From the IMG/VR virus record IMGVR_UViG_3300009494_000009, positions 1-25,056 of that record: 25,056 bases of DNA; one strand, 5' to 3'. This DNA comes from a virus. Shown one piece after another: positions 1-25,056 of the stretch. The translations under genes were made by a program, and so were the position numbers. The notes below the pieces were generated by a model. The model saw only the letters and a list, made by a program, of their open reading frames with translations, was not told the origin of the DNA and searched no databases. Each line of letters begins with the position of its first letter. Within the stretch, counting starts at the first letter, position 1.

Positions 1-103
1 AATTACGGGAGACGACCTAGAGGCTCGTTTTCACAAAGTGTTGAACAATAATCTGGCCAGAATAGACTCTGGTTACAACAAAACTAAATACGTTAATTCG
101 TAA
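1..103 (+). CDS. 3' end of an unidentified early gene (truncated by the window edge)
   Basis: An open frame read from base 2 runs to TAA at 101-103 and gives 33 residues ending in NKTKYVNS. It contains the segment NNLARID, whose LAR comes from the first CTGGCCAG copy. The fragment is too short to identify. In many phages the gene before a DUF2815 protein encodes a DUF2800 PD-(D/E)XK nuclease, so that is a reasonable guess from gene order only. Fifteen bases separate its stop from the next start, which fits the same operon. Confidence 0.6.
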   Translation, partial: ITGDDLEARFHKVLNNNLARIDSGYNKTKYVNS

Positions 104-118
104 AGACGGAGAAATACC

Positions 119-676
119 ATGGGTTTAATTACACCAAAAATGATCATCTCGTTTCCAAAACTGTTCAAAGCTGAAGAGAACCAATCAGGCATTCTTAAGT
201 TCTCTTGCTGCCTCATGATTGAGAAGTCTGATGTTGCTGGCGTTAAGATTCTTCAGGACGCCATTGACAAGGCTATCGTCAAAGGCAAGAAGACCAAATG
301 GAATGGTAAGCTTCCTCGCTTCGCGCATGAGCCTCTTCGTGATGGGGATGCAGAGATTGAGTCAGGTGACAAAGAAGCTGGTAAGGGGTATGAAGGTCGT
401 TATTTCATCAATGCCTCATGTGGTGAGAATGACCAACCAGGAGTTGTAGGTCCTGACTGTCAACCGTTACTTGACGCTGGTCGTATGTATTCAGGCTGTG
501 TTGTTCGTGCAGATGTTAACCCGTTCCCGTATGACAACCAAAGTAAAGGCGTTGCATGGTGGTTGAACCATGTAATGCTTATTGAAGAATGTGCTCCTGA
601 GGATCGTCTTGACGGTAAGCAGTCTGCTGAGAATGCCTTTTCTAAGTTCACTGAAGTTGAGGGCAACTTAGACTAA
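119..676 (+). CDS. DUF2815-family single-stranded DNA-binding protein
   Basis: This 185-residue protein begins MGLITPKMIISFPKLFKAEE and matches the pattern of the DUF2815 family, which is structurally related to T7 gp2.5 ssDNA-binding proteins (family knowledge). Recognisable features are the early FPKLF strand, the central PLRDGD and GYEGRYFINAS segments, the YSGCVVRADVNPFPYDN strand, and the late GVAWWLNHVML segment. It would coat ssDNA at the replication fork and support the polymerase encoded just downstream. The start ATG is preceded by GGAGA at a normal distance. No acidic gp2.5-like C-terminal tail is obvious; the protein ends TEVEGNLD, which is mildly acidic. Family assignment is by recognition of sequence pattern, without a search. 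Confidence 0.85.
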   Translation: MGLITPKMIISFPKLFKAEENQSGILKFSCCLMIEKSDVAGVKILQDAIDKAIVKGKKTKWNGKLPRFAHEPLRDGDAEIESGDKEAGKGYEGRYFINASCGENDQPGVVGPDCQPLLDAGRMYSGCVVRADVNPFPYDNQSKGVAWWLNHVMLIEECAPEDRLDGKQSAENAFSKFTEVEGNLD

Positions 677-717
677 TGACCCAAAGATTCCGAGTACAAT
701 TATTCTTCTTAGAACAT

Positions 718-742
718 AGTCCCCGTGGTGTTTGCGGGGACT
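718..742 (+). other. GC-rich hairpin between the SSB and polymerase genes
   Basis: AGTCCCCG (718-725) and CGGGGACT (735-742) form a perfect 8-bp stem around a 9-base loop. The structure sits in the 106-base gap between the SSB stop (676) and the polymerase start (783). No T-run follows on either strand, so a classical intrinsic terminator is unlikely. It could be an mRNA processing or stabilising hairpin, or an attenuator that lowers polymerase expression relative to SSB. Confidence 0.55.
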
Positions 743-782
743 TGTTAACACAAATCACAATGATAAACATAGGAGTAACTCA

Positions 783-2660
783 GTGACAACAGTTTATTTA
801 GACTTTGAAACATATAGTGAAATGTCTATTGATGCTGGAGCTAGGAAATACGCGTGCCATCCAAGCACGCGTATTTTATGCTTAGCTTACAAAGTAGACG
901 ATGGACCTGTACAACTATGGAAACCAGGTGAGCCTAAACCTACCTGGCCAGAAGGTGCTACGTTGTATGCGCACAATGCGTTGTTTGACTACTATATAAT
1001 GAAGTACTGCATGAAGTGCCACTATAGTTTAGACGGCTGGACTGATACAATGGCCTTATGTGGGCGCTACACACTACCTCTTGGTTTAGCTGATGCTTGT
1101 AGGGCCTTAGGTACTACAGATAAACTTTCTACTGGTAAGGCTTTAATCAGGAAATGCTGTACTCCGAAGGGCTGTCCTACTGCTAATGATTTCTTACAGC
1201 TTTACGCATATTGTAAAGTTGATGTACAGGCAATGTATGATATGGTACAAGCTCTACCATCCTCACGTTTAAGTGATACAGAACAAGCTATTTGGGTTAC
1301 GACTCAAGAGATGAACATGGAGGGTTTACCGGTTAGTCATAAAGAGATTAAGGCCGTACACGACTACACCGATGTCTGGAAAGAAGAACAGATGAAGCGT
1401 GTTCCCGAGATCTCTGGTGGTTTCCTCAACACTATTAACCAGACTGCAAAGATGAAGGAATATTGTGGTCTGCCTAACATGCAGGCTCCTACAGTAGAAA
1501 GTGCTTTACTTGACTCTACCTTGGCCAGTGATGTTCGTGAGTTATTAATATTAAGACAGCAGCTTGGTCGTAGCTCTACTGCTAAGTACAAGAAGCTGTT
1601 ACAAATGGAGCATTATGGTAAGATACATGGAAATCTATGTTATTACGGTGCTGGTACTGGGCGTTATACTGGTCGTGGGTTTCAACTACAAAACCTACCG
1701 AGAGCTTCAGTCAAAGACCCCGAAGCGCTTATTAGATCATTCATCGAAGTGGACGAGATTGAAGACCCAGTTAACAAAGCAAAAGCCTTAATTAGGCCTA
1801 TGATTTGTGCGCCCGAAGGTGAGGCGCTAATCTGCTCTGACTACTCTTCTATTGAGAATATCCTGTTAGTATGGTGTGCTGAAGACTGGGCCGCCTGTAA
1901 ACAGTACGAAGATAAGATGAGCCAGTACAAGATTATGTCGTCTACTCTATACGACATGCCTTACGACGAGGTCCAGAAGGGCACCATCGAATACCAGATT
2001 GGTAAATGCCTTATTCTTGGCTGTGGCTATATGATGGGTGGTAAGCGTTTCCTAGAGGTTGTTGAGGAGATTGGTGTTACAACGTTTGACAAGCACCAAG
2101 CACTTAGAGCGGTTAAAGGGTATAGAGCTTTATATCCTAAAGTAGTTGATCTCTGGTATGGCCTTGATGAGATGATGAAGAACGCAGTAACTAACCCTGG
2201 CCAGGTGTTTAAATACAATAGGTTTAGCGCTCGTCATGTACGTGACAGAGCCCAAAGACGGTGGCTGCTATTTAAGCTGCCATCTGGTAGAGACTTGTTC
2301 TACTGTGAGCCTAAGATTCAACAAGGACGGTTTGGTCCTGAGATTGGCCATTTAGGTCGTAATCCTTATACTAGGCAATGGGGTCCAATGGCGTTGTCCC
2401 CAGGTAGAATAACTGAGAACGCGATGCAGGCTTTAGGTCGTGACATCATGTGCCATGGCCTAGAGAATATAAAACGTGACATGCCAGAAGTAAGACTTAT
2501 CGGCACTGTGCATGATGAGGGTATTGGTATTGGCGACGAGCTACTCATTGACGAGGCAGCTCTTCAGAAATTTGATAATTGTTTATGTGATCTTCCCGAT
2601 TGGGCGCATGATTTACCTATGCGGAGTGAAGGTTGGATAGGAAAGAGGTACAGAAAATGA
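783..2660 (+). CDS. Family A DNA polymerase with 3'-5' exonuclease
   Basis: This is the replicative phage polymerase, 625 residues. The proofreading domain shows ExoI D7-x-E9 (YLDFET), ExoII N65 to D69 (AHNALFD) and ExoIII Y143-x3-D147 (YCKVD). The polymerase domain has motif A at D353 (SDYSSIE), motif B K408-x7-Y416 and motif C H577-D578-E579 (TVHDEG). The 5'-3' exonuclease domain of bacterial Pol I is absent, as usual in phages. I chose the GTG at 783 because AGGAG lies about 8 bases upstream and translation then starts right at the exonuclease strand. The frame is open further upstream from a TTG at 732, but that start lies inside the hairpin and lacks a ribosome binding site. Its stop overlaps the next start (ATGA). 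A perfect inverted repeat lies at 846-876. Confidence 0.95.
   Translation: MTTVYLDFETYSEMSIDAGARKYACHPSTRILCLAYKVDDGPVQLWKPGEPKPTWPEGATLYAHNALFDYYIMKYCMKCHYSLDGWTDTMALCGRYTLPLGLADACRALGTTDKLSTGKALIRKCCTPKGCPTANDFLQLYAYCKVDVQAMYDMVQALPSSRLSDTEQAIWVTTQEMNMEGLPVSHKEIKAVHDYTDVWKEEQMKRVPEISGGFLNTINQTAKMKEYCGLPNMQAPTVESALLDSTLASDVRELLILRQQLGRSSTAKYKKLLQMEHYGKIHGNLCYYGAGTGRYTGRGFQLQNLPRASVKDPEALIRSFIEVDEIEDPVNKAKALIRPMICAPEGEALICSDYSSIENILLVWCAEDWAACKQYEDKMSQYKIMSSTLYDMPYDEVQKGTIEYQIGKCLILGCGYMMGGKRFLEVVEEIGVTTFDKHQALRAVKGYRALYPKVVDLWYGLDEMMKNAVTNPGQVFKYNRFSARHVRDRAQRRWLLFKLPSGRDLFYCEPKIQQGRFGPEIGHLGRNPYTRQWGPMALSPGRITENAMQALGRDIMCHGLENIKRDMPEVRLIGTVHDEGIGIGDELLIDEAALQKFDNCLCDLPDWAHDLPMRSEGWIGKRYRK
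846..876 (+). repeat. Perfect 12-bp inverted repeat inside the polymerase gene
   Basis: AAATACGCGTGC (846-857) and GCACGCGTATTT (865-876) are exact reverse complements around the 7-base loop CATCCAA. The 3' arm runs into TATTTTATG, so as RNA it is a strong stem with a U-rich 3' flank, which looks like a terminator or attenuator. It begins only 63 bases after the polymerase start. The coded segment, KYACHPSTRIL, is of the conserved type for this family, so the DNA-level symmetry coexists with protein constraint. Confidence 0.7.
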
Positions 2661-2899
2661 TGCGAGAAGCGATGGAGAAGGCTGGGCTACTAAAGTCAAA
2701 AGACGCTATGGCGCAACGATGGCTGCGGTCATGGGTAGCGCTGCAACCACATCTGGCCAGAGAGAATGATGAGGAGACAATCTTGCATCTTATGCAATTT
2801 GAGAAAGCCCACAAGAAACGTGCACAGATCATATCTCGTATTTGGTCTCGCTACAAGACGGTGCGTAACGCACGTGAGGAGGCAGAAATTGTCCTTTAA
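2657..2899 (+). CDS. Small helical protein of unknown function
   Basis: The product is 80 residues starting MMREAMEKAGLLK. It is rich in Lys, Arg and Glu and is probably all alpha-helical, with no signal peptide or membrane segment. I chose the ATG at 2657 because it overlaps the polymerase stop as ATGATG, with AGAGG upstream; an in-frame TTG at 2633 is less likely. The CTGGCCAG copy at 2753 encodes LAR within PHLARENDEE. I do not recognise the family. Its position between polymerase and nuclease suggests a replication accessory role (inference). The next gene starts inside its last codons. Confidence 0.7.
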   Translation: MMREAMEKAGLLKSKDAMAQRWLRSWVALQPHLARENDEETILHLMQFEKAHKKRAQIISRIWSRYKTVRNAREEAEIVL

Positions 2900-3251: not shown

Positions 3252-3984
3252 GTTTCCGTGCATAATAAGCCCTAAGCTTGATGGTGTACGTGGTTTTTAT
3301 AGAGACGGCGAATTTGTGTCTCGTAATGATAAAGAGATCATTGGGCTTACTCATATCAAAGAGCAGCTAAAAGGTATACCACATGACCTTGATGGCGAGC
3401 TAATGGTACCTGGCCAGATATTTGATAACGCTTCTGGCCTGCTTCGTAACCACCAAGAGGTGCCTGAAGCTGAGTACCACATATTTGATATTCCTAACCT
3501 TGAAGGCTACGGTATCATAGAGCGCTTTGGTAAGCTTGGTAATCTCAAAGCTCAGTTAGAGGATAAGCCAAACATTAAGTTTGTAAAGCATACAATGTGC
3601 AGAGGTATGAAAACGCTTATGGCATTCTATCATAAGTGTATCGCTGAAGGCTATGAAGGTATCGTCATCAAGTCCAAGGAACATTTGTACCGTAACGCAA
3701 GGTCTTGGGACTGGCAGCGCCTTGTTCCTATACACTCCGAAGACTGCGAGTGTACTGGTATCTTTCCAGGTAAAGGTAAACACCTAGGCCGTGCTGGTGG
3801 TATCTTCATCGAGTTCGGCGGTCATACCGTTAAGGTTGGTACAGGGTTCTCGGATGCTGAGCGCGAGGATATGATGATCAATGATCCTACTGGCCAGATA
3901 GCTGAGACGCAATATAAAGAGAAAACTAAGGCTGGCAGTATGCGGCACCCAGCATTTAAGGGATGGAGGGATGACAAGGTATGA
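3205..3984 (+). CDS. ATP-dependent DNA ligase
   Basis: This 259-residue nucleotidyltransferase seals nicks left by replication and recombination. Motif I is SPKLDGVRG with the adenylated lysine K24. A later acidic motif is DLDGEL with E65, motif IV is GYEGIVIK with E151 and K156, and a basic WQRLVPI-type segment follows. The C-terminal part (FPGKGKHLGRAGGIFIEFGG) is an OB-fold-like domain, as in T7 ligase, although at 259 residues the enzyme is shorter than T7 ligase (about 360). The start is fixed by a near-perfect AAGGAGGT about 6 bases before ATG at 3205, inside the end of the nuclease gene. Two CTGGCCAG copies (3410, 3890) both encode GQI (PGQIF, TGQIA). Its stop overlaps the next start. 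Confidence 0.93.
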   Translation: MNNVMLLKTFNPTKIKFPCIISPKLDGVRGFYRDGEFVSRNDKEIIGLTHIKEQLKGIPHDLDGELMVPGQIFDNASGLLRNHQEVPEAEYHIFDIPNLEGYGIIERFGKLGNLKAQLEDKPNIKFVKHTMCRGMKTLMAFYHKCIAEGYEGIVIKSKEHLYRNARSWDWQRLVPIHSEDCECTGIFPGKGKHLGRAGGIFIEFGGHTVKVGTGFSDAEREDMMINDPTGQIAETQYKEKTKAGSMRHPAFKGWRDDKV

Positions 3985-4503: not shown

Positions 4504-5839
4504 AGCTAGGCCGTACCAAGTACGAGGAATCAAGTGGTGCCTTAATAATCCTCGTGGTTATTTGATGCTTGACATGGGTTTGGGTAAGACCTTAATCACC
4601 TTGCGGACATTATGTTCGCAAGGTGAGCGAGCGCTTGTCATAGCACCACTAAAACCGTTATATAACACCTGGCCAGATGAAATAGTTAAATGGACGCCTG
4701 AGTTGTCATTTACAATGCTACATGATTCTACTTTGTCTAGGACTCTAGAAGAGGACAGCGATGTATATCTCATTAACCCTGAGGGCATGGAGAGGTTGTA
4801 CTATGCTCTTGAGAAGTATTACAAGAAGTATAAGAAGATACCTTTCACCACATTGGTACTCGATGAAGGGTCGGTTTGGAAGTCTCACAGTGCTAAGCGA
4901 TTCAAGATTTTGGATAGTCTACTTGATATGTTCCCTAATTATCGTTACATTCTTAGCGGTACTCCTGCGCCTCACAGCTTACATGATTTATGGTCCCAGT
5001 ATTACATCTTGGACGGAGGAGCTAGTCTTGGTAAAAATATATCTACTTTTCGCGAGCGCTATTTTAGGGTTAATCCTAATTGCAAGCATCAGTGGTTCTT
5101 GACCGTAGAAGAATCAGAGTTGTATAAAAAGGTGGAGCACCTTACATATAGACTAGACGCCCGTGACCATATTGAGTATTGTAATTCTAGTTATATTAAA
5201 GACGAGATAGAGCTAAATAAAGCTCATTCTGATCAGTATAAGCAGCTTCAGAAGGATTTCTACCTTAGTTTAGATGAGAATGCATCAGAAACCGAAGCGT
5301 TCACTACAGCTCAGTTACAAGCTCAATTAAGACAGTTTGTTCAAGGCGCCCTCTACACGGATCATCCAGTGTACGAAGTCATACATACTACGAAGATCGA
5401 GCGCCTTAAAACTATACTGGCCAGAGGTGATAATGTTCTCTGTGCTATCCAGTTCCGGTTTGAACTAGATATGCTCAAGAAGGCTTTTCCTGACGCGCCA
5501 TCAATCGTTGGTGGTGTAAACTCCGACACAGCTAATAGGCTAATGAGAAAATGGAACACGGGCGAAATACCGTTGCTTATAGTACATCCGCAAGCAGTAG
5601 CCCACGGCGTAAACATACAGTTCGGTGGACATGTAGTCGTTTGGTTAGGGCTCACATGGAACTTAGAACACTACTTGCAGTTAAATGGCAGGTTGGTAAG
5701 GCCAGGACAAGAGCACGATGTCGAGGTTATACATATCATCGCGAAAGGTACTATAGATGAAGCGGTGTATAAGTCACTACAAAACAAAGAGAAGGTGCAG
5801 GATTCCTTTTTACAACACATGAGAGAGGTAACAGGATGA
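4490..5839 (+). CDS. SNF2-type superfamily 2 DNA helicase/translocase
   Basis: This 449-residue protein has the helicase motifs in order: PYQVRGIKW Q-like motif, Walker A DMGLGKT (D28-T34), Walker B LDEGS (D125-E126; the usual DEAH/DEAD is DEGS here, as in phage SNF2 proteins), motif III SGTPAP (S156) and motif VI QLNGRLVRPGQ (Q397-R404). It is a dsDNA translocase that probably remodels forks or strips proteins. Pairing with a VRR-NUC nuclease and a DUF2815 protein is common in phage genomes (family knowledge). I chose the ATG at 4490, with GAGGTG just upstream, over the in-frame TTG at 4478. The CTGGCCAG at 4669 encodes TWPDE and the one at 5417 encodes LARGD. Confidence 0.92.
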   Translation: MLKPKARPYQVRGIKWCLNNPRGYLMLDMGLGKTLITLRTLCSQGERALVIAPLKPLYNTWPDEIVKWTPELSFTMLHDSTLSRTLEEDSDVYLINPEGMERLYYALEKYYKKYKKIPFTTLVLDEGSVWKSHSAKRFKILDSLLDMFPNYRYILSGTPAPHSLHDLWSQYYILDGGASLGKNISTFRERYFRVNPNCKHQWFLTVEESELYKKVEHLTYRLDARDHIEYCNSSYIKDEIELNKAHSDQYKQLQKDFYLSLDENASETEAFTTAQLQAQLRQFVQGALYTDHPVYEVIHTTKIERLKTILARGDNVLCAIQFRFELDMLKKAFPDAPSIVGGVNSDTANRLMRKWNTGEIPLLIVHPQAVAHGVNIQFGGHVVVWLGLTWNLEHYLQLNGRLVRPGQEHDVEVIHIIAKGTIDEAVYKSLQNKEKVQDSFLQHMREVTG

Positions 5840-6027: not shown

Positions 6028-6418
6028 ACGATATATGCTTCGCGCTGCAGAGATTGCAAGGTGGAGTAAGGATGACATCGGTGTCGGCGCTGTCATTGTA
6101 GGTAAGGATAACAGGCAAACGTCTGAGGGGTACAACGGTGTGCCGGCTGGGATTGACGAGTTGTTTAAATTAGAAAGTGAAGCTAAGATTCATGCGGAGG
6201 AGAACGCCATATTGTTTGCTAGGTGCAATTTATCTGGCCAGAGGATATATGTATGGCCTTTCTTGCCATGCGCCCATTGTGCTTCTATCATAGCTCAAGT
6301 TGGTATTATAGAAGTCATTGTGCCTGAAGAAGAGGCTACAAGTGACAAGTGGCAACGAAGCTGGGACTTAGCGAAAGCATTGTTTGCTGATAAAGGAATC
6401 AAGGTGAGGAAGGTATGA
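6011..6418 (+). CDS. dCMP/deoxycytidylate deaminase
   Basis: This 135-residue zinc-dependent deaminase converts dCMP to dUMP, feeding dTTP synthesis for phage DNA. The catalytic motif is H61-A62-E63 (IHAEENAILFA) and the zinc cysteines are P-C87-A-H-C90 (LPCAHCASII). The N-terminus WDRRYMLRAAEIARWSKD and GVGAVIV are typical of the family. The CTGGCCAG copy at 6234 encodes SGQR in the loop before the PCxxC motif. A purine-rich GGAGGGGG lies upstream of the ATG. Cytidine deaminase or a tRNA adenosine deaminase-like role is possible, but phage context favours dCMP. No thymidylate synthase partner is seen in the window. Confidence 0.9.
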   Translation: MNKWDRRYMLRAAEIARWSKDDIGVGAVIVGKDNRQTSEGYNGVPAGIDELFKLESEAKIHAEENAILFARCNLSGQRIYVWPFLPCAHCASIIAQVGIIEVIVPEEEATSDKWQRSWDLAKALFADKGIKVRKV

Positions 6419-6804
6419 AAACTCGTAAAGGTAAACATGCTACACTAGAGTACTGGTACGAAGACAGATGGTGGACAGTAAATGAACTATCTGTGCGGTG
6501 GGGCTTGTCGCCGTCGCACTTTTATAAGCTGGGCAAATCTTATAATTCCTTTACGGCACATGACGCTAAGTATGGCGTGTTTAAGTACTCTGATAATAGA
6601 GTAAACGCCGAAGCCCGCGTCGACACTTGTCTCGAGGACCAAGGCAGGTGCCGGCGGTATGAGGAATGCTGGTTACGAGGGTGTACTGAGATTGGGTCTG
6701 TAGAGTGTCTAGGTTTTGAGTTAGACACTCGTACTAGAGCGCATACTGGTAAGTGCCACGGTAAGCCCGCCAGACCAGTGCAGGGTAGTTCTGCGAATGA
6801 TTAA
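6415..6804 (+). CDS. Cys-rich protein with HTH-like N-terminus, unknown function
   Basis: This is a 129-residue basic protein. Residues of about 18-40 (WWTVNELSVRWGLSPSHFYK) look like a helix-turn-helix. The middle part has a Cys cluster, C-x7-C-x5-C-x4-C, in DTCLEDQGRCRRYEECWLRGC, followed by VECLGF and GKCHG, which could bind zinc. The start overlaps the deaminase stop (ATGA). It is the last gene of the plus-strand operon and its TAA (6802-6804) overlaps the stop of the oppositely oriented virion operon. An early-to-late transcription switch factor is one possibility, but this is only inference. Confidence 0.7.
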   Translation: MKTRKGKHATLEYWYEDRWWTVNELSVRWGLSPSHFYKLGKSYNSFTAHDAKYGVFKYSDNRVNAEARVDTCLEDQGRCRRYEECWLRGCTEIGSVECLGFELDTRTRAHTGKCHGKPARPVQGSSAND

Positions 6805-8156
6805 AGTATACTGTGCGCACTGTCTGGTATCTTACCCTCAGTAACTAGGTCACGCACTGCCTTTAACGCGTCGGCTTCATACCTCTCGAAGTCACTAGAC
6901 TTTGAGAATCTGAAACTTCTATCAAACAACTGTAGCTCGTTAACATTTAGCTTACGACGAGCTGCAGTGTCTCTAGCCTGCACTTCACCTGCGGTATTCA
7001 TATATGTTACATGTGTAGCGGTTTCCATCTTGATGTCATGAATACGTTGCATCTCACCACCAGTTCTATTAAGCATGGGTACTTCTACTAATTTGTTATA
7101 CTCTTGGTTGTTCCTTAGTATGGTGTCAAGCATTGGGCTGTCCCATAACTCGTCTATTTGTTTCTTGATAAGCTCATGCCCTGGTGCATTAGGGTTCTTG
7201 TGTATACTCTCCATCTTAGCTATACTAGCGCCTTTAAAGCTCAGCGACTTGTCTTGAATTCGGTGCTGTACTTCATGTGTCACGACATCTAGCAGTTTCT
7301 TTGCAGACGAGCCTTTAGCAACGTATACAGTATCGCCCAACAGGTAAGCAGTATTGATAGGCATGACATCGCCATTAGGTTTATGAATGTCAACGCTAGG
7401 TCTATGAGTAGCGTACTCAACGTTGACATTTCTAAGTCCTGGCATGAACTCGTACATGCTATCATGTTTTACTAGAGAGCCAAGCTTACCGCTCTTTACT
7501 ACAAATTCACCAGGCCCAATAGCATACGTAGCACCAGGCTTAAAAGCCATCATCTCATCAGATATCTCAACACTCCTGGCCAGAGTTACATCAAAGTCCA
7601 CAACGCCCTCGTTGCCTGACGGGAATGGCGTCTTCTTAACATTAGCTATAGAGTGGCCTTGCTCAGCTGCTGCAGTCTCATATTTAGCAAACTCGCTATA
7701 GCTTAGTTTGTGTGGCACAGGTGCAGTGCTAGGCATATCAACTGAGCTTATAGCCGGCTTATGAGAAACAGCTCTAATGGCGTTTCTGATGTCAACTGTC
7801 TTCTTAGGCAGCACCATACCAATAGCCATCAAAGCTTTGCCGCCAACACCAAATCCCAACACATCAGCAGCAGCAAATATACGGTCAGCTGTTGTAGCAG
7901 TACCAGCTACTTCCTTTTCAGCGTGGGCAGCTAAACTAATAGGCGCACTAAACGCGCCAAGACCTAACGCGTCTTTTTGAATCTGCTTCGGTTGGTTTTT
8001 AAACTCAACACCTTGTTGGGCTAACAGCATAGACTTACCGTAACCAGAAGCACTACTGGCCAGATAGTTCTTAATGATACTGCCAGCTCTTGTCATACCT
8101 GCTATTGCTTCTGGTTTTAACCCAGTTTGTTCTGGCGCGCCTATTGTCGAGGGCAT
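6801..8156 (-). CDS. Virion-operon protein with HEVQH metallopeptidase motif
   Basis: This 451-residue protein is the last gene of the late operon. It carries H294-E295-V-Q-H298 in LLDVVTHEVQHRIQD, the HExxH signature of zincins. It is preceded by a strand (TVYVAKGSSAKKLLD), as in the metallopeptidase-like domains of phage polyvalent ejected proteins. The N-terminal third (QTGLKPEAIAGMTRAGS... to ADVLGFGVGGKALMAIGM) has Ala/Gly-rich hydrophobic stretches that could contact membrane. No signal peptide is present. It may be a minor virion protein delivered with DNA, acting on host proteins or the wall (inference). The third zinc ligand is not evident. The start ATG overlaps the previous stop as TAATG. 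CTGGCCAG copies at 7576 and 8056 encode LARS and LASS. Confidence 0.72.
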   Translation of the reverse strand: MPSTIGAPEQTGLKPEAIAGMTRAGSIIKNYLASSASGYGKSMLLAQQGVEFKNQPKQIQKDALGLGAFSAPISLAAHAEKEVAGTATTADRIFAAADVLGFGVGGKALMAIGMVLPKKTVDIRNAIRAVSHKPAISSVDMPSTAPVPHKLSYSEFAKYETAAAEQGHSIANVKKTPFPSGNEGVVDFDVTLARSVEISDEMMAFKPGATYAIGPGEFVVKSGKLGSLVKHDSMYEFMPGLRNVNVEYATHRPSVDIHKPNGDVMPINTAYLLGDTVYVAKGSSAKKLLDVVTHEVQHRIQDKSLSFKGASIAKMESIHKNPNAPGHELIKKQIDELWDSPMLDTILRNNQEYNKLVEVPMLNRTGGEMQRIHDIKMETATHVTYMNTAGEVQARDTAARRKLNVNELQLFDRSFRFSKSSDFERYEADALKAVRDLVTEGKIPDSAHSIL

Positions 8157-8419: not shown

Positions 8420-8429
8420 TCTATCTCCT

Positions 8430-9979: not shown

Positions 9980-10545
9980 TAGGAGTTCCTCAGTTCGTAT
10001 AAGTCAGTGACCTCTGCAGTGGCGTTATCCACTACATCCTGTGCTTCAGCTCTCTCAGCTTCGTCCTGCACCACTAGAGGATTCCTGATCTGGATAGGGT
10101 TTCCCTCCTCGTCTACAGAATCCACATACTCTGGTAGAGGTTCAATACCAAGGATATGTGGTATCTCAGGTGTAAGCTCCTCCCCAGTCTCTGGATCGTA
10201 TGTAGGTGGAACGTACTCTTGCTCCGGTCTACCTTCGAGTAAGATATACTTATCTAATCTGGCCAGTGATTGCTCGTAGCCTATTGTGTTAATAAGGAGT
10301 GTATTCTCTGCCTCAGCCACCACAAGCATGGCTCTCGCGTCCTCCATGAAGATACTGAAGTCCGCTAAGACTTGGTCCTCCACAGGGGATGTTGGCCTGC
10401 TGCCCATACCTTTGCCAGTACCTATCCGGTTGATAACCTGCTCGCTACGATGACCATAATGCTGGTTCTCGATGTTTGTTAAACGCTTCTCTAGTTGAGC
10501 AGGCGTGTATGTTGTGTTGCTCATTAAGTCAATAAAACTTTCCAT
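9979..10545 (-). CDS. Protein following the tail fibre gene, unknown (possible fibre chaperone)
   Basis: This 188-residue acidic protein starts MESFIDLMSNTTYTPAQLEK. It is helical at first, then Pro/Glu-rich (YVPPTYDPETGEELTPEIP), and has a helical C-terminus rich in Ala, Glu and Asp. Its ribosome binding site GGAGG lies in the final codons of the fibre gene and the stop/start overlap is TAATG, so translation should be coupled to the fibre. Fibre chaperones often sit here, but I see no recognisable chaperone motif. CTGGCCAG at 10259 encodes SLARLDK. An alternative start is the ATG seven codons on (MSNTTYTP). Confidence 0.6.
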   Translation of the reverse strand: MESFIDLMSNTTYTPAQLEKRLTNIENQHYGHRSEQVINRIGTGKGMGSRPTSPVEDQVLADFSIFMEDARAMLVVAEAENTLLINTIGYEQSLARLDKYILLEGRPEQEYVPPTYDPETGEELTPEIPHILGIEPLPEYVDSVDEEGNPIQIRNPLVVQDEAERAEAQDVVDNATAEVTDLYELRNS

Positions 10546-13718: not shown

Positions 13719-16700
13719 GGCATTTTCCTTTCAATTTCAGTAAACCCTCTGTGTAAGAGGAAGTGATTATTTAACCATACTAACCGTCTCATCGCGCGCC
13801 AATCACGCTCTTCCATCTGGCCAGAGGATATGGCGCCCACTACTTGGTTAGCATTCTTAACTGTGGATAACCAAGGCCCAAGAGCCACTCCTAATGTGCC
13901 GTCAAACTGGTACCTAGTTGTTGGGCTACCTTCTAAACCTACTGCTTTAAATGCGTCTACATTACCTTTTGAAGCTCGTTCAACTAAGGTGTTAACACTT
14001 AACCATGCCGCCAAGAACCCTGAGCGGTCTACAGACTCTTTGACAACTGTATCAAAGTCTGTAGCTATAGGTTTACCCATTATAGTCTGTCTAGAGGCGT
14101 ACGACACATAACCAGCAAATAAGGCGGTACCAAGACCAACCATCTTCTGCATAGTTAAGTCATCCAGCGTAGCCATCGTCATACGATGATTAGCCGCAAT
14201 TGCGAATGACTTAAACTGGAATATTAGCCTACCAACTTCACCTTTACTAACGAGTGGCAGATCACCGACACCAGGGGTTACAATAGTGGTCTCAGCTTCT
14301 TTAAAGATAGCTTGCTTAAAACGAGCAGCTAAAGCTTTATCTGGCCAGTTATTAATCTCTGGTATGGATTGGTTTTTACCATACTTCGCGATCTTCTCTA
14401 AGTCAGACTTTGATAACCCACCTTGTGCATACCTAGCTAACTTCTTGGGCGCCATCGTAGCTACCTCAAGTGCGTCACGTAGTACACCTTTAGCATAGAT
14501 TGTGCCAACCATAGTCTTAAGTTGGGCATTCCATAAATTCATGCCTGTCCACTTTCCCATACCAGTTGTGGCAGCCGTCATAAGCTTGTCAAACTTATTT
14601 CTAGGGGTATAGTTTTGGTCCAACATATTCATTTCAGCAAGGCGCTTACTGTTAAATAAGTCCATTGCAAGACCAATATCTTTCATAAATGCTCTGTCTG
14701 CTTTAGCAGCAGACGAGAAGCTAAACACTTCAGGGCCAAACTTAAGTACTCTTGCGCCATGCCGCATATTGATGTGGCCTATGTCAGGCAAAGCAGACAC
14801 AGTCATCATACCAAGTTTAGTCAGTAGGTTATGATTACGTAAGAACTGACCGGCATGAGAGAATATAGAATCAGGGTTAGCGGGTTGGGCATATCTGTTA
14901 TGCAGTTGTTCAACCATAGCTGTTACATCGCGTTTAAAGGCCTTACGCTGCTTTCCTAATTTCCTAGCTAGTTTAGGTTGAGCTTTGTTTATTTGGCTAT
15001 CAAACGCGCTTAAAACGCTAGTTATGGCTGTTCCTGCATCCTCATCACCAAAGGTTTCTTTCATTACTAAACGAGGTGCTGCATCACGTAAATAATGGTA
15101 CCAGACACTGTTAGGGTCTTTGTCTAGCCATTTAGACATGTCCTGGAAAGGTATATCAATAATACGTTCCTTAAGAGGGCCGGTTTCAAAGGACTGCAGC
15201 TTGTAACCTTTACGAGCACGATAGTTACCATTCGCTATGTTGTTGTACACCTCATCTGCCGCTCTACCTACTTGAGCTTCAAACTCTGGCAGCTTAACTT
15301 GCTGGAACTCTTCAACAAGGGTCTTAAGTCTGGCTTCTACTTGAGCCAGCATCTGCTCTGGTGTTCTTCTCTGGCCAGTGGATGCTGACGTCTTTGGTTT
15401 CGTTTTAGCTAACTTAGCTTTACGAATACTAATCTCTTCTTGTAAGCTTTCGATAGACTTACTAAACTTCCGTACTAAGTTGTTCTGCATCACTGACTTT
15501 AAGTCAGATATAAACTCGTTGCGGTTGCTGTTGAGTAGTACTTGATTCCACCTGCGATGGTAGTAGCTAAGGTCGCCAACAGGCTGTTCAGCTTTAGCTG
15601 TTATCTTAAGGTCATGCACTAGTTGGTCTAAAACATTACCGTCTAGTTTCTTTACGATACCAGCTCTAGGTAAACCGTCTTTACGAAAGTAAACCTCCTT
15701 AACATCTCCCTCTTCTACCAAGTGTTTGATATCATCCCATACTAGGCCTTCCCAATCTTCATATCCTTTTCGTAGTACATTGGCATCAACCATACGTTTT
15801 TCAATAGGGTTAATAATGCCACGAATGTCTTTAGCTGTTTTAGATATAACATCATCAACGCCCTTATCTGCTTGGGTATGAGCAAGACCAACTTCATCCA
15901 TAAATTGTGTATGCGATAGAGTGCCGCCACTGTTACGATGCGCAGTATAACCCTCGTTACTTATGAGGTGTACTCTAGATGAAGCCTCAGCTACAAGTTG
16001 GTCAATCTGTACCTCAGCTGAAATAGTAGCTCTGCCATATTTGTTATTGAGAGTCTGCAAAGGGCTGGAGATTAGCTTTGATGTAATGTCACGTACTTCA
16101 GACATCCCAGAAGTCATAAGACGCACCCCAGGACTCATGAACCCCATAGCCTTATACACTTTAGGGTGCTTAAGAGTATTAGCAGTCTTAGCATACCCCG
16201 TTAATACCGAATCAACCATGGCGTCACGGTCAGCAAACTTAACAGTACCTTTCTTAACCATAGCGTCTACTTCAGACACAGCAGCTGAATAATGCTCTTT
16301 TGAAAACTTACCATTATAATCTTTAACTGGGGTAGCTATAGACATCGCGGGCGTAGAGTCAGCATACATAGCTTCGTCGGTGCCCTTCATAACCTTAGCA
16401 GACCCAAATAACAAGTTACCAGCTAGACCTAGAGTACCAGCAAAGGCGGCAGAACCACCAATGTTAAACATAGACTCTGCAGCCGATCGTGTGCTCTGGG
16501 CGTCTTGTAAATATAACTCACTCAACGAGGCCTCTGCTGCACCTAAAGAAGCTGCTATGCCAAAACTCCTGGCCAGAGATGCTTCTTTAATAAGTACACT
16601 TCCAGGGATAGCGTACAGTGGAAATTGCTCAGGTGATGTTAGAGCTGCTGCTGCAGTGTATATAAATCCCATTTTAGGATTGTCACTGAGAATTTGTTTG

Positions 16701-17029: not shown

Positions 17030-19344
17030 AAGTTATCTTCAGAAGGGTAAGTGTCAGTACTATCTTTAGTTAGTGGGCCAAACATCTTGTATCGTAGGTC
17101 TTCAGCTTTGTTCTTAAGCCCAACTTGCATACGAGGTATCGCGCCTTCATGTGGGTCTAGAGCATATTTTAATGCTGGGTCTTTAACAACCAACAATGAT
17201 GGGTTATCTTTCTGCCACTGTAATGAGTCTTGTGTTTGTTTGTTCTTGGCGTCAGCTCGTGCAGCAGCAATCTCAGCAACTCGTCTTTGCTCTCGCTCCA
17301 TAGGAGTTCCTTCAAAAACAGGTTGGTAGGTGTTGAGTGGTATAGACATTCCACCAAACCTTGGGTTATTGTCTATAAGAGTGTACACTGGATTCTTAAC
17401 ATCAAAATCAGGGCCAGCTACCATCTCAATAAAGTTAGTATCATAGTTTGGGTCACCACCACCTAAAACTTGTGCCGCTTTAATTTCAGTAGACAGTTGT
17501 TGCTTGATCCATATATCATTTTGTTTTGGAGGCAGACCAGTAGTATTTGACATGATCTTGCCTGCTGGGCGATGGACAAGCTCTGCTTTACTGCCAATAG
17601 TAGACACGCCATACTCATGTTTTAAAGACTCAATCGCTAAGTCCAAAGACCGTTGGGTATCGCCTTGAGCTAGTGGTAAATATTCACCAGCTAGCGACTT
17701 AATACGGTTACGCATACCATTCTGTACATATGCAGGTGAAGTACCAAAGAACTTGTTAACTACTGGAAATTTCTCTTCAAGAGTTCTGTTAAAGCTCTTA
17801 TCGAGTACTTCTTTATAGTCATGTGAGTACCGTTGATCCTTGTACATCTTCTGCTCAGCCTCACCTAACGCAGCTTTAGCGTTATACAGCTTTAGGGCTT
17901 CTTCTTTACCTTCTTTAGTCTGGCCAGTTAGCTGCACTAATGAGTATAAGTCTTTTACGTACGACGCTTCAGGGTTATTAAATAAGTAAGCAGGGTCTTT
18001 ATCTGCTACCATAGCAAACACCTCTATAACATCTGCTTTCTCTTGGTCTGTGCCATTAAGAAGTACAGTGCCCATAGTTCTTTCAAAATGCATTGGGAAG
18101 AACCCAAAACGCTTTGTTAGAGCTACCATAATAGCATTCTGCTCGCTCTCAGGGTCAATTAGAGCGGCTTCATCAATAGAGCCCTCAATATACTTACCTT
18201 TGTCATCCCATTGGCCACCGACAAGTTCTTGCGCGGTAGAGTTATATTCTTTAGCGTTCTTACGAGGTGACACCTTAAGTCTACCACTAAAGATCAGCTG
18301 TGAAATAAGATTGCGTTTGCTTGAGTCAGAAATGACCTTAAGGCCACGAGCATAGTCATTACGCACAGCTTGCATTTTGTCAACTAAGGTGGATTTGTAT
18401 ACCTCATCACCACCAAGCTCTTCAGCTGACCTACGGATGTAGTCATTGATTGTGGCATCGGCAACAGCAACAGCAGCAGTAAGGCCCTTTTCTTGTTCTA
18501 TCTGGTTTAGCCCTGTTGTCATCTCTTGGGTTTCATAATTTATCTGGCCAGTGTTAACTGCAGCGATAAATGATCTCTGATCTGCTGTGCTTAGGTTGTT
18601 ATCTTCACGAGCTTTCTGCTTCAGTCCTAAAGACTTTTCAGGACTGTTGGCCTTAGCTAACCGGCTTTGCTCATAGCCATCTAGTTTTCTGCCACGTTGT
18701 ACTTTAGCCTTGTATGCTCGTTGAGCTTTAGGCGTCATGACCATTTGGAAGTGCGGGTCATTTAATACTATGTCAGCGTTATCCCAATCATGGTTTAGCA
18801 CAGCACCATCAAGGGTCTCTATAGCAGTATTTTCAGCATCTACTAGCTGAGCGGTATTTACTTTATTAGCCCAAGCGCCATCCGCCAGCGCGTCTATCTC
18901 AAGCTTACCCTCTTCAAACATCATACCAGCTTGATCTGACACTATACCTTCACGAGCTGTCTTCTGGGCCTCACGTTTAATAGAGTGTAATTTGTCTGCT
19001 TCGTTGTCCCAAATAGGGCTGCCATTCTCGTCGAAGTCAGTAGTACTCTTCATAGTGGCAGATACGTTAGCTTTGTAAGCAGTAAGTGCTTTCATAGCTT
19101 CAGCTTTCTGTGAGGCTGCCATCATAGCCTCGTTAGCAGCCTCACGTTTGCGTATCTGTTCTGTCACAAGGCCCGTTGCTTTCTGCGCTAGCTGCCCGCG
19201 TTGGCCCGCTATAGTAACACCATTAGAAGCTTTCTGCATGGCGATATTTGCGGCGTCAACTGCGTTACGTTGCCCAGCGTAAGCGTCGGTGGTATCCCTA
19301 CCTAGCCCTTGTACAGCACCTTGAGTTATACCAGGTAATCTCAT
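17026..19344 (-). CDS. Internal virion protein C-like (T7 gp15 position)
   Basis: This 772-residue protein is about the size of T7 gp15 (about 747) and lies between gp14-like and gp16-like genes. It is mainly helical and rich in Lys, Ala and Gln (QGAVQGLGRDTTDAYAGQRN...), with no signal or membrane segment. I chose the ATG at 19344 because GGGAGG lies 6 bases upstream and the ATGA overlaps the previous stop; an in-frame TTG two codons earlier is less likely. By analogy it forms the periplasmic tube of the ejection channel. The assignment rests on order and size more than on motifs. CTGGCCAG at 17930 and 18544 both encode TGQ. Confidence 0.75.
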   Translation of the reverse strand: MRLPGITQGAVQGLGRDTTDAYAGQRNAVDAANIAMQKASNGVTIAGQRGQLAQKATGLVTEQIRKREAANEAMMAASQKAEAMKALTAYKANVSATMKSTTDFDENGSPIWDNEADKLHSIKREAQKTAREGIVSDQAGMMFEEGKLEIDALADGAWANKVNTAQLVDAENTAIETLDGAVLNHDWDNADIVLNDPHFQMVMTPKAQRAYKAKVQRGRKLDGYEQSRLAKANSPEKSLGLKQKAREDNNLSTADQRSFIAAVNTGQINYETQEMTTGLNQIEQEKGLTAAVAVADATINDYIRRSAEELGGDEVYKSTLVDKMQAVRNDYARGLKVISDSSKRNLISQLIFSGRLKVSPRKNAKEYNSTAQELVGGQWDDKGKYIEGSIDEAALIDPESEQNAIMVALTKRFGFFPMHFERTMGTVLLNGTDQEKADVIEVFAMVADKDPAYLFNNPEASYVKDLYSLVQLTGQTKEGKEEALKLYNAKAALGEAEQKMYKDQRYSHDYKEVLDKSFNRTLEEKFPVVNKFFGTSPAYVQNGMRNRIKSLAGEYLPLAQGDTQRSLDLAIESLKHEYGVSTIGSKAELVHRPAGKIMSNTTGLPPKQNDIWIKQQLSTEIKAAQVLGGGDPNYDTNFIEMVAGPDFDVKNPVYTLIDNNPRFGGMSIPLNTYQPVFEGTPMEREQRRVAEIAAARADAKNKQTQDSLQWQKDNPSLLVVKDPALKYALDPHEGAIPRMQVGLKNKAEDLRYKMFGPLTKDSTDTYPSEDNL

Positions 19345-19871: not shown

Positions 19872-19872
19872 A

Positions 19873-20307
19873 CTAAGCCCTCAACGCGTATACAGTAGAG
19901 TCAAGCTTAAACCCTTTACGCAATAATATTTTAGAGTAATCTCTTTGTGGAGTAACACTCATTGCTATCTCCTTAACACCATCTTCTAACAATTGGTCGA
20001 TACACTGGCGTACAAACTTTAAACTACCAAAGCCCCTCTGGCCAGATAGAAATGCCATAGTGTCTAGTTCAGCGCGCAGCACACCAGAATGAGTCGAGAC
20101 AGATATACCAAATATAGCGTACCCTATCAATTCACCATCTACTCTAGCACAAAAACATTTAACGACTCCAGCTAGTATAAGCGCCCGGTAAGCTTCAAAA
20201 TTAGGGCACATAGCATGTTGGTGATTCCATTCAAGCCACCACTGCTTGGCTACTGCGTACACTTCTGCCATCATAGTGTCTGACGGGTATTCAGTCGTTA
20301 ACTCCAC
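19873..20307 (-). CDS. GNAT-fold acetyltransferase-like protein (T7 gp13 position)
   Basis: This 144-residue protein has the GNAT layout: a helical start, the strand VVKCFCARVDGELIGYAIF, the strand GVLRAELDTMAFL, an acetyl-CoA loop at SGQRGFGSLKFVRQCID (a R/QxxGxG/A-like QRGFGS) and a final strand IAMSVTPQRDY. T7-like phages often carry such a protein at the gp13 position. Its use as an enzyme or as a structural scaffold fold is unclear. The CTGGCCAG at 20038 encodes the SGQ of the acetyl-CoA loop. The start is GTG at 20307, overlapping the previous gene by 10 bases; an internal MMAEVYAV start is possible. Confidence 0.78.
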   Translation of the reverse strand: MELTTEYPSDTMMAEVYAVAKQWWLEWNHQHAMCPNFEAYRALILAGVVKCFCARVDGELIGYAIFGISVSTHSGVLRAELDTMAFLSGQRGFGSLKFVRQCIDQLLEDGVKEIAMSVTPQRDYSKILLRKGFKLDSTVYALRA

Positions 20308-21053: not shown

Positions 21054-22720
21054 TATAGCTGCTCCACTGCTGCTTCACCTGATATAGACAGTAAGGTCAG
21101 TATCAAAGGTAAGTCTTGGTAAATAGATATCTGGGTAAAGGTGGTCCAACCACGATTAGTAACAAATACGTCTTCAGTTAAAGGTGGTTGCGGAGTACCC
21201 ATAGGAGTAGACACTTGCCTAGTCGCCGGTCGTATAGCTTCAATTTTTGGTTTAGCAGACTCATAAATTCTAGCAACAATTTTATTCCAACGTTTCATAT
21301 GATGTACTACAGCGCCAGATGAATCTGAATAGTACGCTAAAGGTAAAGTCTCAATCATCTGACGATACCCTAAACCGACATGTACTACAGAAGCTGCTAT
21401 AGCTAATTCTATCTGGCCAGAGGATACAACAGCTGGGCTTGCTACAGCACCGTCTGCTATAACGTTTACTGTTTGCCCTTCAAGGTGGTCTAGACCAGTA
21501 ATAGTAGTAGTCTCAGTACCATCATAGGTTACACGGTTGTCTAGCATGATTAGGTCTTCATCAAACCCTAGCAAGCTTAATTGTATATCATCACCCACGT
21601 TCTGCAATAACCCTGTTAACGAGTAGCCCTCTAAATCATCAGAGGCTAGGTCTAGCACATCGTGTGTTAAGTCATGCCGATGCCAACCAACAATGAGGTC
21701 TTCAGTATCGACACCCATACGTTGGTATGAGCAGCCGGCGAGTTTGTTATCCTTATCTACTAGCCATAAAACCGGGTCTGGGTTACGAGCAAATGATATG
21801 TCCTTCACACCAGCCAGCATTATATGGTCAGCCGCAAAGGTTAAGTCATTAGCAAACCAGCCAGACTCAGTCCATTTGTAAACCATAGACCGCACCTTAC
21901 GGCCATCAGCGGATATAAATACTTCCTCATTGCCAATAGCTATAGGAACGACGTCTTTAGAACCGTGCGCTGACTGCTGCACAATTTGTATATCACTTGG
22001 GGTGATGATAGGCCCAATAGATTCAGCAACGAACTCTCTGTTACTAGTACCTATTAACAGTGTTCTACCACCTTCAATCCATACAATAAGGCCTTTGCGG
22101 TCTAACGTAAAATCAAGAGCATCATTATCGTTAACACCAGGAGTTAGGTCTGTAAAGTTACCAGACATACTACCTAGAAAGTTTTCAGGGTCATTGTACA
22201 TGCCTGCAAACCATGAACGTCCTTGGTAGAACGTACAAGTTGTTGGGTAATTACCTACTACCCATTTAGCTGGGGCGTTAGTAAATGATATAGCACCAAG
22301 AGTCCACGCAGCAGCTGTCATCTCTTGCGGAGCTACGTCGCTATGTAGCATCCAAATGTCATCTGAGTTTGGACGAGCTATGATTATGACACCTGCTAGT
22401 TGTGCAGCGGAATAGGGACTAGCGTGACTTACTGGTGTACTACCAGTACTATCAGTAATCCACATTGCGCCATCAACTAAAATAATAAAATATAGCACAC
22501 CTTGAAACTGGTATGCAAATAAACGACCGTCAGTAACGTTAGGTATAACGGCTAAGTGTCTAGTGCCAGGTCTACCTGAAACTGTACCACGGGCGTCTGG
22601 CATCATATTCTCACAAAGTGCCAGGCCTTGCTTATATGGCTTTGTATTAAGACGACCCCACATTTTAGGTGTGATCTCGCCGTACGCAAAACTATCTAGT
22701 AAAGGGTTTATTCTACCCAC
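21053..22720 (-). CDS. Tail tubular protein B-like (tail nozzle)
   Basis: This 555-residue protein begins MGRINPLLDSFAYGEITPKM and continues GLALCENMMPDARGTVSGRPGTRHL. That is the hallmark N-terminus of podovirus tail nozzle (gp12-like, stabilisation) proteins, where the genome exits and fibres attach. It is shorter than T7 gp12 (about 794). The rest is beta-rich, as expected of a propeller-like body. The start is GTG at 22720 with AGAGGAG upstream; it overlaps the end of the tail tubular A gene by 8 bases. The CTGGCCAG at 21413 encodes SSGQIEL. Confidence 0.85.
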   Translation of the reverse strand: MGRINPLLDSFAYGEITPKMWGRLNTKPYKQGLALCENMMPDARGTVSGRPGTRHLAVIPNVTDGRLFAYQFQGVLYFIILVDGAMWITDSTGSTPVSHASPYSAAQLAGVIIIARPNSDDIWMLHSDVAPQEMTAAAWTLGAISFTNAPAKWVVGNYPTTCTFYQGRSWFAGMYNDPENFLGSMSGNFTDLTPGVNDNDALDFTLDRKGLIVWIEGGRTLLIGTSNREFVAESIGPIITPSDIQIVQQSAHGSKDVVPIAIGNEEVFISADGRKVRSMVYKWTESGWFANDLTFAADHIMLAGVKDISFARNPDPVLWLVDKDNKLAGCSYQRMGVDTEDLIVGWHRHDLTHDVLDLASDDLEGYSLTGLLQNVGDDIQLSLLGFDEDLIMLDNRVTYDGTETTTITGLDHLEGQTVNVIADGAVASPAVVSSGQIELAIAASVVHVGLGYRQMIETLPLAYYSDSSGAVVHHMKRWNKIVARIYESAKPKIEAIRPATRQVSTPMGTPQPPLTEDVFVTNRGWTTFTQISIYQDLPLILTLLSISGEAAVEQL

Positions 22721-23497: not shown

Positions 23498-23509
23498 GAG
23501 TACTTCCTC

Positions 23510-23543
23510 AAAGTAAACTCTGGCCAGAGTATCCTGGCCAGAG
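23510..23543 (-). terminator. Inverted pair of CTGGCCAG motifs forming a terminator-like hairpin after the capsid gene
   Basis: Read on the minus strand, nine bases after the capsid stop: CTCTGGCCAG, the loop GATACT, CTGGCCAGAG, then TTTACTTT. The 10-bp stem is perfect and GC-rich, with the T-rich flank at 23510-23517. It lies just downstream of the major capsid gene, where T7 has its T-phi terminator, so partial termination would raise capsid mRNA over the tail genes. ACTCTGGCCAGAGT (23517-23530) is by itself a 14-bp palindrome. It is built from two copies of the genome-wide repeat, the only adjacent pair in the window. The T-run is interrupted, so efficiency may be partial. Confidence 0.7.
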
Positions 23544-23551
23544 AATTAATA

Positions 23552-24427
23552 TTAAACTAATGCGTCCTTAAGGTGAAGGTGAACAATCTGCTCATCTTCA
23601 ATACGGACCGCGCCTGCAGTCATTTGTACAAATGCCTGCCACATGTAAGACTTACCTGGGTCTTTACCAATCTCAACCATAAGGTCTTGGTTAACAGCAA
23701 GGCCAAGAGCTTGTGGAGTAAAGGCGAGACAAGAAATCTCACCAGTACCAGGATCAAGAAGACGGTTAGAAACGATCCAAGTAAAACCCATCCAGTTGTG
23801 AACAATACCAGTAGCATTGAGTGTCTGGAGTGCTTGGGTAGTAACGTAATCCGAGTTAGTCTGCTGCTCAAGCTTCAGTAACGCACGAACCTGAGTAGGG
23901 CCAATGACCATACACTTAGGCACATCAGGGTTAATGAAGTTTTGCATGAACTTCTCTTGGACTGCAGTAATAATATCGAAGTCCATGAGTTGAGTAGCAC
24001 TACCAATAACTTGGCCTGCTGGGAAGGCATTAGCTACACCGTCACCATCAAGAGCAGTACCAGTAGCAGCAGCAATGATAAGGTCATCGTACTTACGGTT
24101 GATAGCCATACCTTGTGCTTTATGGTAGTTAGACATAGGATCAACAAGCATCTGAACTTTATCTTCAGACTCAACTGTCATGGTGTTGGTGAAGGTACCA
24201 GGACCCGCAACACGACGTGTCCAGTCGTCATCAGCATAGACTGTATCAACACGACGACCAGTCTTAGCAACCATCTCAGTAGGACCAAGAAGTTCAAAGT
24301 TGTACGCTTTACCACCAGAGGATACTTCAGTGATCGTGGACCGGAGTAAGTTGCCAGACTGCTGTACAGTATGTGTCACCAGGTTCCGGTATTCCTCGAT
24401 GAATGCTGCATCGATTGTAATAGCCAT
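23552..24427 (-). CDS. Major capsid protein
   Basis: This 291-residue protein has the architecture of phage capsid proteins with an HK97-type fold. It has an N-terminal helical arm (AAFIEEYRNLVTHTVQQSGN), the TEMVAKTGRRVDTVYADDDW segment, a spine helix region (NYHKAQGMAINRKYDDLIIAAA), a P-domain with CMVIGPTQVRALL, and a final beta segment (AVRIEDEQIVHLHL). The start ATG has AAGGAGAA upstream. It lies directly downstream of the scaffold gene, as in T7 (genes 9 and 10). It contains no CTGGCCAG inside the gene. A hairpin precedes it and a terminator-like one follows it. Confidence 0.88.
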   Translation of the reverse strand: MAITIDAAFIEEYRNLVTHTVQQSGNLLRSTITEVSSGGKAYNFELLGPTEMVAKTGRRVDTVYADDDWTRRVAGPGTFTNTMTVESEDKVQMLVDPMSNYHKAQGMAINRKYDDLIIAAATGTALDGDGVANAFPAGQVIGSATQLMDFDIITAVQEKFMQNFINPDVPKCMVIGPTQVRALLKLEQQTNSDYVTTQALQTLNATGIVHNWMGFTWIVSNRLLDPGTGEISCLAFTPQALGLAVNQDLMVEIGKDPGKSYMWQAFVQMTAGAVRIEDEQIVHLHLKDALV

Positions 24428-24459
24428 TTGTAATTCTCCTTAATAGGATTTAAAGTGAT

Positions 24460-24484
24460 GAGCCACCCGGAACCCTCCGGACTC
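24460..24484 (-). promoter_or_regulatory. Hairpin in the scaffold-capsid gap, upstream of the capsid ribosome binding site
   Basis: On the minus strand, the stem CCGGA/TCCGG with loop GGGT is extended by an outer GAG/CTC (GAGTCCGGA ... TCCGGGTGGCTC, with a bulge). It lies about 33 bases upstream of the capsid start, in the 80-base gap after the scaffold stop. No T-run follows, so this is not a clear terminator. It may be a processing or stabilising hairpin for the capsid mRNA. A promoter in this gap cannot be excluded. Confidence 0.4.
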
Positions 24485-24507
24485 GGTTTGTTATATTCGC
24501 TGGACGC

Positions 24508-25056
24508 TTATGCGCTCCCCAGTTTCAATCGGGTTAATTTTGTTACTTTGGCACGTGCTGCTTTATGCCCAATATCCTTAGTATTCCAATAAGGATGTTT
24601 GTTGTTACCCATGATATCACTCAACTGCATCGCGGCTTCATCAGGGGTCATGGTACCATCTGATTGACTTGTATCCAACAAACTGTTAGACTCGCCGCCT
24701 AGCTGGTTAGCAATTGCTACAAACGCTTTCATAGTTGCCGCGTTCATTTGCTCAGGGATAAAATCAAAGTATTGCTTACGTACATTCTCGGCAACCTGTT
24801 TATTCTTATCCTTAGCTGCTCCCCATTCACTGGCCAGAGTATTTAGTTCTTTGTTAAATGCCGCTTGTTGGGCTCGCTGACCTTCGTACTCTTTTGTAGT
24901 GATCGCGGTTACTACCTTTTCAAACTGCGTCTGGTTTAACCCAATCTCGTGTGCTAAACCTGCAAAGTCCTCTTGGCGCTTGGTATCTATTTCCAAGCCC
25001 TCAAGGTTAAGCTCTGGTGCTTTATACTCAGTCGCCTTCTCAGGCATACCCATCAT
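24508..25056 (-). CDS. Scaffolding protein (5' end beyond the window)
   Basis: The 182 residues visible begin at the window edge and end TRLKLGSA. Composition and order fit a podovirus scaffold. It is acidic and helical, with a Gln/Ala-rich coiled coil (QRAQQAAFNKELNTLASEWGAAKDKNK) and a basic C-terminus (HKAARAKVTKLTRLKLGSA) suited to binding the capsid shell. It lies immediately upstream of the major capsid gene. The MMGMPEK at the edge could be internal, since the frame stays open to base 25056. The CTGGCCAG at 24830 encodes TLASEW. Confidence 0.75.
   Translation of the reverse strand: MMGMPEKATEYKAPELNLEGLEIDTKRQEDFAGLAHEIGLNQTQFEKVVTAITTKEYEGQRAQQAAFNKELNTLASEWGAAKDKNKQVAENVRKQYFDFIPEQMNAATMKAFVAIANQLGGESNSLLDTSQSDGTMTPDEAAMQLSDIMGNNKHPYWNTKDIGHKAARAKVTKLTRLKLGSA

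Follow-up and report, generated by a model that had tools for sequence, protein, structure and literature searches.

A dispersed eight-base palindrome with strand-specific flanks in a phage genome, possibly the signature word of an unsampled host

Why does a phage carry one and the same eight-base palindrome about once per kilobase? In the window, i.e. the whole stretch of 25,056 nucleotides analysed here, CTGGCCAG occurs in 25 exact copies between positions 53 and 24837. This number, given already by the initial annotation, was confirmed by our count and by 100 dinucleotide shuffles of the window, in which the word had a mean of 0.34 and a maximum of 3 copies. Markov modelling, proposed at the outset as a check, yields 0.42, 0.83 and 1.24 copies at orders 1, 2 and 3, and all null models together give about 0.3-1.2 copies per window; values near 25 appear only at orders 5-6 and are circular, because CTGGCCAG dominates its own sub-words. 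The enrichment continues beyond the window: The whole record of 36,814 bp contains 38 copies (1.03/kb) where about one is expected, and the reversed control word is completely absent from it. The exact word is thus far above the Markov expectation throughout the genome, as is the case for host-type iterated words. The one-mismatch words sum up to 11 as compared to 7 for the control word, which is near background, so that the exact copies are not accompanied by a wide halo of decayed ones. The exception among these near-words is ATGGCCAG, which is present five times.

The sites occupy all three codon phases, both gene blocks and intergenic positions, and the mapping to ORFs bore out the earlier statement that all phases and both operons are used. 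The codon tally that came with this statement had to be revised in part: The 11 sites read as x-G-Q and the three read as W-P stood, whereas L-A-R/S accounts for seven rather than nine sites, and four rather than two are located outside called genes (53, 2753, 23520, 23534). Within genes, we find 21 of the 25 sites. The sites, and one ORF that is discussed below, are the following (single sites have no assigned strand):

53..60: outside called genes, upstream of the SSB gene
944..951: DNA polymerase, W-P phase
2197..2204: DNA polymerase, P-G-Q
2753..2760: intergenic, just upstream of the endonuclease gene
3410..3417: ligase, P-G-Q
3890..3897: ligase, T-G-Q
4669..4676: helicase, W-P
5417..5424: helicase, L-A-R
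6234..6241: dCMP deaminase, S-G-Q
6415..6804, plus strand: 129-aa ORF, weakly similar to HTH_AraC (Pfam E 0.014, a match that misses the curated cut-off)
7576..7583: 451-aa ORF
8056..8063: 451-aa ORF
9318..9325: 377-aa tail-fibre-related ORF
10259..10266: 188-aa ORF
13195..13202: 1057-aa tail protein
13817..13824: 1104-aa internal virion protein
14341..14348: internal virion protein, W-P
15371..15378: internal virion protein, T-G-Q
16569..16576: internal virion protein, L-A-R
17920..17927: 774-aa ORF
18544..18551: 774-aa ORF
20038..20045: acetyltransferase-like ORF
21413..21420: tail tube B-type protein, S-G-Q
23518..23543, minus strand: pair of sites (23520 and 23534) directly downstream of the capsid gene, folding into a terminator-like hairpin of 11 bp
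24830..24837: ORF adjoining the capsid gene, L-A-S

The spacing of the sites is over-even, with a CV of 0.60 as compared to 0.96 in simulations (P 3e-4), and apart from a single close pair no two sites are nearer than 200 bp. The 11-bp hairpin of the capsid-side pair lies in the gap that separates the capsid gene from its neighbour, and TTTACTTT follows it; its terminator-like character is based on the fold (-24 kcal/mol, z -4.3) and on a terminator scan.

The alignment of all 38 sites of the record revealed that the palindrome is embedded in a larger site. The 5' flank hardly ever has a G, and its mirror positions on the 3' side hardly ever a C: At a distance of 1-4, G on the 5' side or C on the mirror side was found in 8 out of 304 cases, with 67 expected (P 8e-23). 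Farther out, at a distance of 5-9, the avoidance is weaker, and at 10-20 it is gone. Moreover, 7-8 bases outside the core, A is favoured on the left (P 0.003) and T on the right (P 0.0002), and the flank preferences extend to about one helical turn from the site centre. The recognition site is longer than 8 bp, about 16-24 bp including the flanks, around a core that is a sharp 8 bp. Since the complementarity of the arms beyond the 8-mer was not above the marginals in the 38 sites, the flank rule is not a longer palindrome. The rule was found neither at the other CTG words of the record nor at CTGGCCAG in the other viral and bacterial loci that were fetched (2810 of 8470, 2543 expected).

The phage encodes a gp2.5-type SSB, a DNA polymerase, a ligase, a helicase, a dCMP deaminase, a primase/helicase-like protein as well as tail-tube and internal virion proteins. 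This gene content agrees with the label "T7-like" that the phage had been given; however, no phage RNA polymerase was recognised among its genes, and terminase, portal and capsid are nearest to those of Vibrio, Cronobacter and Alteromonas podophages. Neither an integrase nor a lysogeny module was recognised, and the phage is apparently virulent. Ten N right at the window end (record 25057-25066) represent a scaffold gap within the gene upstream of 24508-25056. Beyond the window, record 34942-35529 (L006:14942-15529) encodes a pentapeptide-repeat protein of 195 aa (Pfam E 8e-34); proteins of this type can mimic DNA.

Is the word an old possession of this phage lineage? Three phages whose terminases are 46-54% identical do not contain a single copy in 23-25 kb each. 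Among 80 terminase relatives in viral contigs, none has more than three copies, and the closest (65% identity) has none in 4.3 kb; L420, a terminase relative with the same metagenome id as the fragment L241 described below, has none in 16.4 kb. As the terminase relatives are not enriched, the word is not an ancestral trait of the terminase clade, and its gain in the phage is apparently recent. According to the initial annotation, lack of enrichment in close relatives would speak against its proposal. The enrichment is indeed absent from the terminase relatives, of which the closest has 65% identity, but this absence in protein relatives argues for host dependence and not for an artefact. The idea that sites might be kept at synonymous positions applies in part: At some sites the residues are kept while the codons differ. 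In the terminase, G-Q is often retained by relatives through GGC CAA, GGA CAG or GGG CAG, and at the first portal site they have L-A-A or L-A-S, encoded by other codons. At the second portal site the residues differ, S-G-Q in the phage versus K-D-A or similar in several relatives including the closest. Since the encoded residues are kept with other codons at some sites, it is the DNA word that counts, and we conclude from the terminase and portal comparisons that it was gained both synonymously and by tolerated amino-acid change. The early argument for a beneficial site is thus supported, with the wording that the site is beneficial or driven at the DNA level, by the codon phases, both gene blocks, the flank rule, the even spacing and the codons of the relatives. 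In viral contigs, relatives of the DNA polymerase gave no locus and those of the capsid one locus. Another terminase relative (L401, 170-14078) contains TCCGCGGA six times in 15 kb, with 0.2 expected, and is possibly another phage with an iterated palindrome.

A screen of several hundred contigs selected for a close CTGGCCAG pair identified L241, a podophage fragment of 4.2 kb with six copies of the word. Because L241 was found by contig screening, its copy number alone is modest evidence. Its flank rule is the same as that of the phage (1 of 48, 11.5 expected, P 3e-5), and this is independent support for a shared extended word. L241 also has a hairpin pair (2250/2266), located between the capsid and tail-tube genes, that resembles the capsid-side pair of the phage. 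The L241 capsid has no significant alignment to the phage capsid and belongs to a phiV10-like family, and the tail-tube proteins are 31% identical; judged by these sequences, L241 is an unrelated podophage of a different lineage. The word and the flank rule are shared with L241 and not with the terminase relatives. The other pair-based matches in viral contigs were rejected, since most of them were pairs arising by chance in GC-rich DNA, hairpins (L362) or pairs in homologous coding sequence (e. g. the L163/L188/L210 group), and L123 was dismissed as a word carrier because the copies reside in a repetitive LA-rich gene. The several intergenic pairs of the phage contig L362 (1739-3047) are without flank rule and are probably hairpins.

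We propose, with a probability of about 0.5, that CTGGCCAG and its flanks make up a signature word, of the uptake-signal or HIP1 kind, found throughout the genome of the host, and that the word has accumulated because the phage evolves in this host. Of the candidates listed in the initial annotation, the best fit is the uptake or HIP1-like word that phage and host would have in common, as the unrelated L241 shares the extended word, the terminase relatives are without it, and phages with USS or HIP1 exist; yet, no such host was found among about 1,950 genomes. The host would bear CTGGCCAG with its flanks (no G 5', no C 3') as a genome-wide word, and a host factor would recognise the site of about 20 bp. 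This factor may be an uptake receptor, an architectural or repair protein, or methyltransferase-linked repair, and it would drive or select the gain of CTGGCCAG in the phage.

The failed host search counts against this proposal. The genomes sampled belong to Gammaproteobacteria, Enterobacterales, Pseudomonadales, Burkholderiales, Alphaproteobacteria, Cyanobacteria and Bacteroidota (assigned according to the centre genomes); none of them has CTGGCCAG near 1/kb, the maximum being about 0.27/kb, and no sampled cyanobacterium has the word at high density. High counts in eight genomes (G716, G733, G678, G893, G1077, G1141, G1517, G1751) are close to the trinucleotide expectation, and the flank rule is absent from the outlier genomes checked, i. 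e. all but G766, G1280 and G1412, which have too little readable DNA. The matches listed by the genome-contig pair scan were mostly GC-rich genomes. In a Chloroflexi MAG (L056, JAACFF010000099.1, 620-7320), ACGGCCGT occurs nine times in 8 kb in varied contexts, with 0.16 expected, and is a HIP-like iterated palindrome of this genome.

It is tempting to speculate, as a tentative possibility, that the phage makes use of an undescribed genome-landmark system: a palindromic site of about 20 bp in a virulent phage, selected about every kb, which a phage or host protein would read while the genome is replicated, compacted or repaired, and which unrelated phages sharing a host would have acquired de novo. 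The present case is distinguished by the apparent virulence of the phage, by the density of the word and its flank rule, and by a gain that is apparently recent. The initial annotation knew of no described system with this motif, and our literature searches found no description of the word either. Even spacing of such words has been taken as a sign of a role in replication, repair or compaction, a view that is summarised together with the counter-arguments in PMC1939737.

Three alternatives to the host word are considered in the order in which they survive: a binding protein of the phage, repair linked to methylation, and a signal for primase. First, CTGGCCAG might be bound by a protein of the phage itself that coats, compacts or organises the genome or controls transcription elongation at many points like stoperators. 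Such a protein might be encoded by the 94-aa winged-helix-like ORF (record 30168-30452) or by the 129-aa ORF, the latter a candidate by its weak similarity. The over-even spacing and the flanks reaching to about one helical turn suit a genome-wide DNA-binding protein, small HTH-like ORFs are present even if their Pfam matches are weak only, and no word-bearing host was found. We still regard this idea as rather unlikely: L241 has a different capsid lineage and the same extended word, and would therefore need to have the protein in common with the phage as well; searches of viral contigs and phages for relatives of the 94-aa ORF found none; and most sites are inside genes, unlike stoperators.

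Second, a methyltransferase acting on GGCC or TGGCCA and linked repair could create CTGGCCAG without any benefit. Gain driven by methylation and mismatch repair has reportedly been modelled for HIP1 by Elhai in 2015. The palindromic core contains GGCC, and the association of HIP words with methyltransferases (PMC4390886) is a further point in favour. A purely mutational drive, however, does not predict over-even spacing, and no methyltransferase is among the phage ORFs scanned, making this explanation improbable. Third, CTGGCCAG might be a bidirectional start site for primase, with both strands of the palindrome having CTG at their 5' edge, a G-free template giving C-free primers, and a 1-kb spacing resembling Okazaki fragments. 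CTG is the trinucleotide of E. coli DnaG. The strand-specific flank rule, the even spacing and the phage-encoded primase/helicase-like protein are in line with this assumption, but the other CTG words of the record are without flank rule, known primase signals are much shorter than a palindromic core of 8 bp, and L241 would require the same primase; we therefore consider it highly doubtful. Finally, an origin by chance, composition, protein repeats or copied DNA, for which only the abundance of CTGG in many genomes can be cited, is refuted by shuffles and low-order Markov models far below the count, the lack of control words, the three codon phases and the flank rule, and by the contrast to CCTGTACAGG in L336/L379, which was rejected as a comparable word since it is a repeat array with constant repeating context.

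There is debate about what uptake-type words do, and the role of HIP1-type words has yet to be settled; a small, apparently virulent phage is a compact test object. With about 38 copies gained here and none or few in the terminase relatives, selection on the site can be separated from slow prophage change; moreover, the phage shows even spacing and provides a testable footprint with its flank rule. If the host is found, CTGGCCAG may serve as a host tag for phage contigs, as the USS does in Pasteurellaceae.

How does the proposed host word compare to known systems? The stoperators of cluster A mycobacteriophages are asymmetric, transcription-oriented and mostly intergenic protein-binding sites, tens per genome. 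The phage likewise has tens of sites over one genome, but CTGGCCAG is palindromic and mostly intragenic (21 of 25 window sites), and no lysogeny module or integrase was recognised, so that it does not belong to the stoperators. DNA uptake signals (USS/DUS), e. g. AAGTGCGGT, are different words, whereas CTGGCCAG is a palindrome. The Haemophilus phages HP1 and HP2 contain 17 USS each, with 0.3 expected, at over-even spacing (HP1 P 0.003). As in these phages, one exact word is enriched mostly within genes, at a density of the same order (0.53/kb for the USS, 1.03/kb for CTGGCCAG), with over-even spacing and near-background one-mismatch words. Unlike CTGGCCAG, the USS is not a palindrome, and it belongs to a known, naturally competent host. 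Our phage is denser in its word. HP1 and HP2 are temperate, whereas our phage is apparently virulent, which counts against the host word. In Pasteurellaceae phages, the USS frequency tracks the host and is used as a proxy for phage-host coevolution; large, likely lytic phages are USS-poor, again a point against a host word (PMC6776037). HIP1 (GCGATCGC) of the cyanobacteria is found 27 times in Planktothrix phage PaV-LD and 20 times in Nodularia phage 2AV2, with 0.2-0.3 expected in 50 kb. The cyanopodophages A-4L (L502) and Pf-WMP4 (L503) contain neither HIP1 nor GATC (96 and 120 GATC expected), the opposite strategy to that of the HIP1-rich phages. Like HIP1, CTGGCCAG is a dispersed, phage-borne 8-bp palindrome; its core is GGCC rather than GATC, and HIP1 in PaV-LD and 2AV2 is without such a flank rule and without significant over-even spacing. 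The iterated word is therefore not HIP1 itself; of the traits of the wider HIP class, it has the palindromic octamer, with no methyltransferase in the phage ORFs scanned. We consider it most economical to read CTGGCCAG as a genomic word of the host type, from an unsampled host, that differs from the words of both the USS and HIP1 and combines the density and spacing of the former with the palindrome of the latter.
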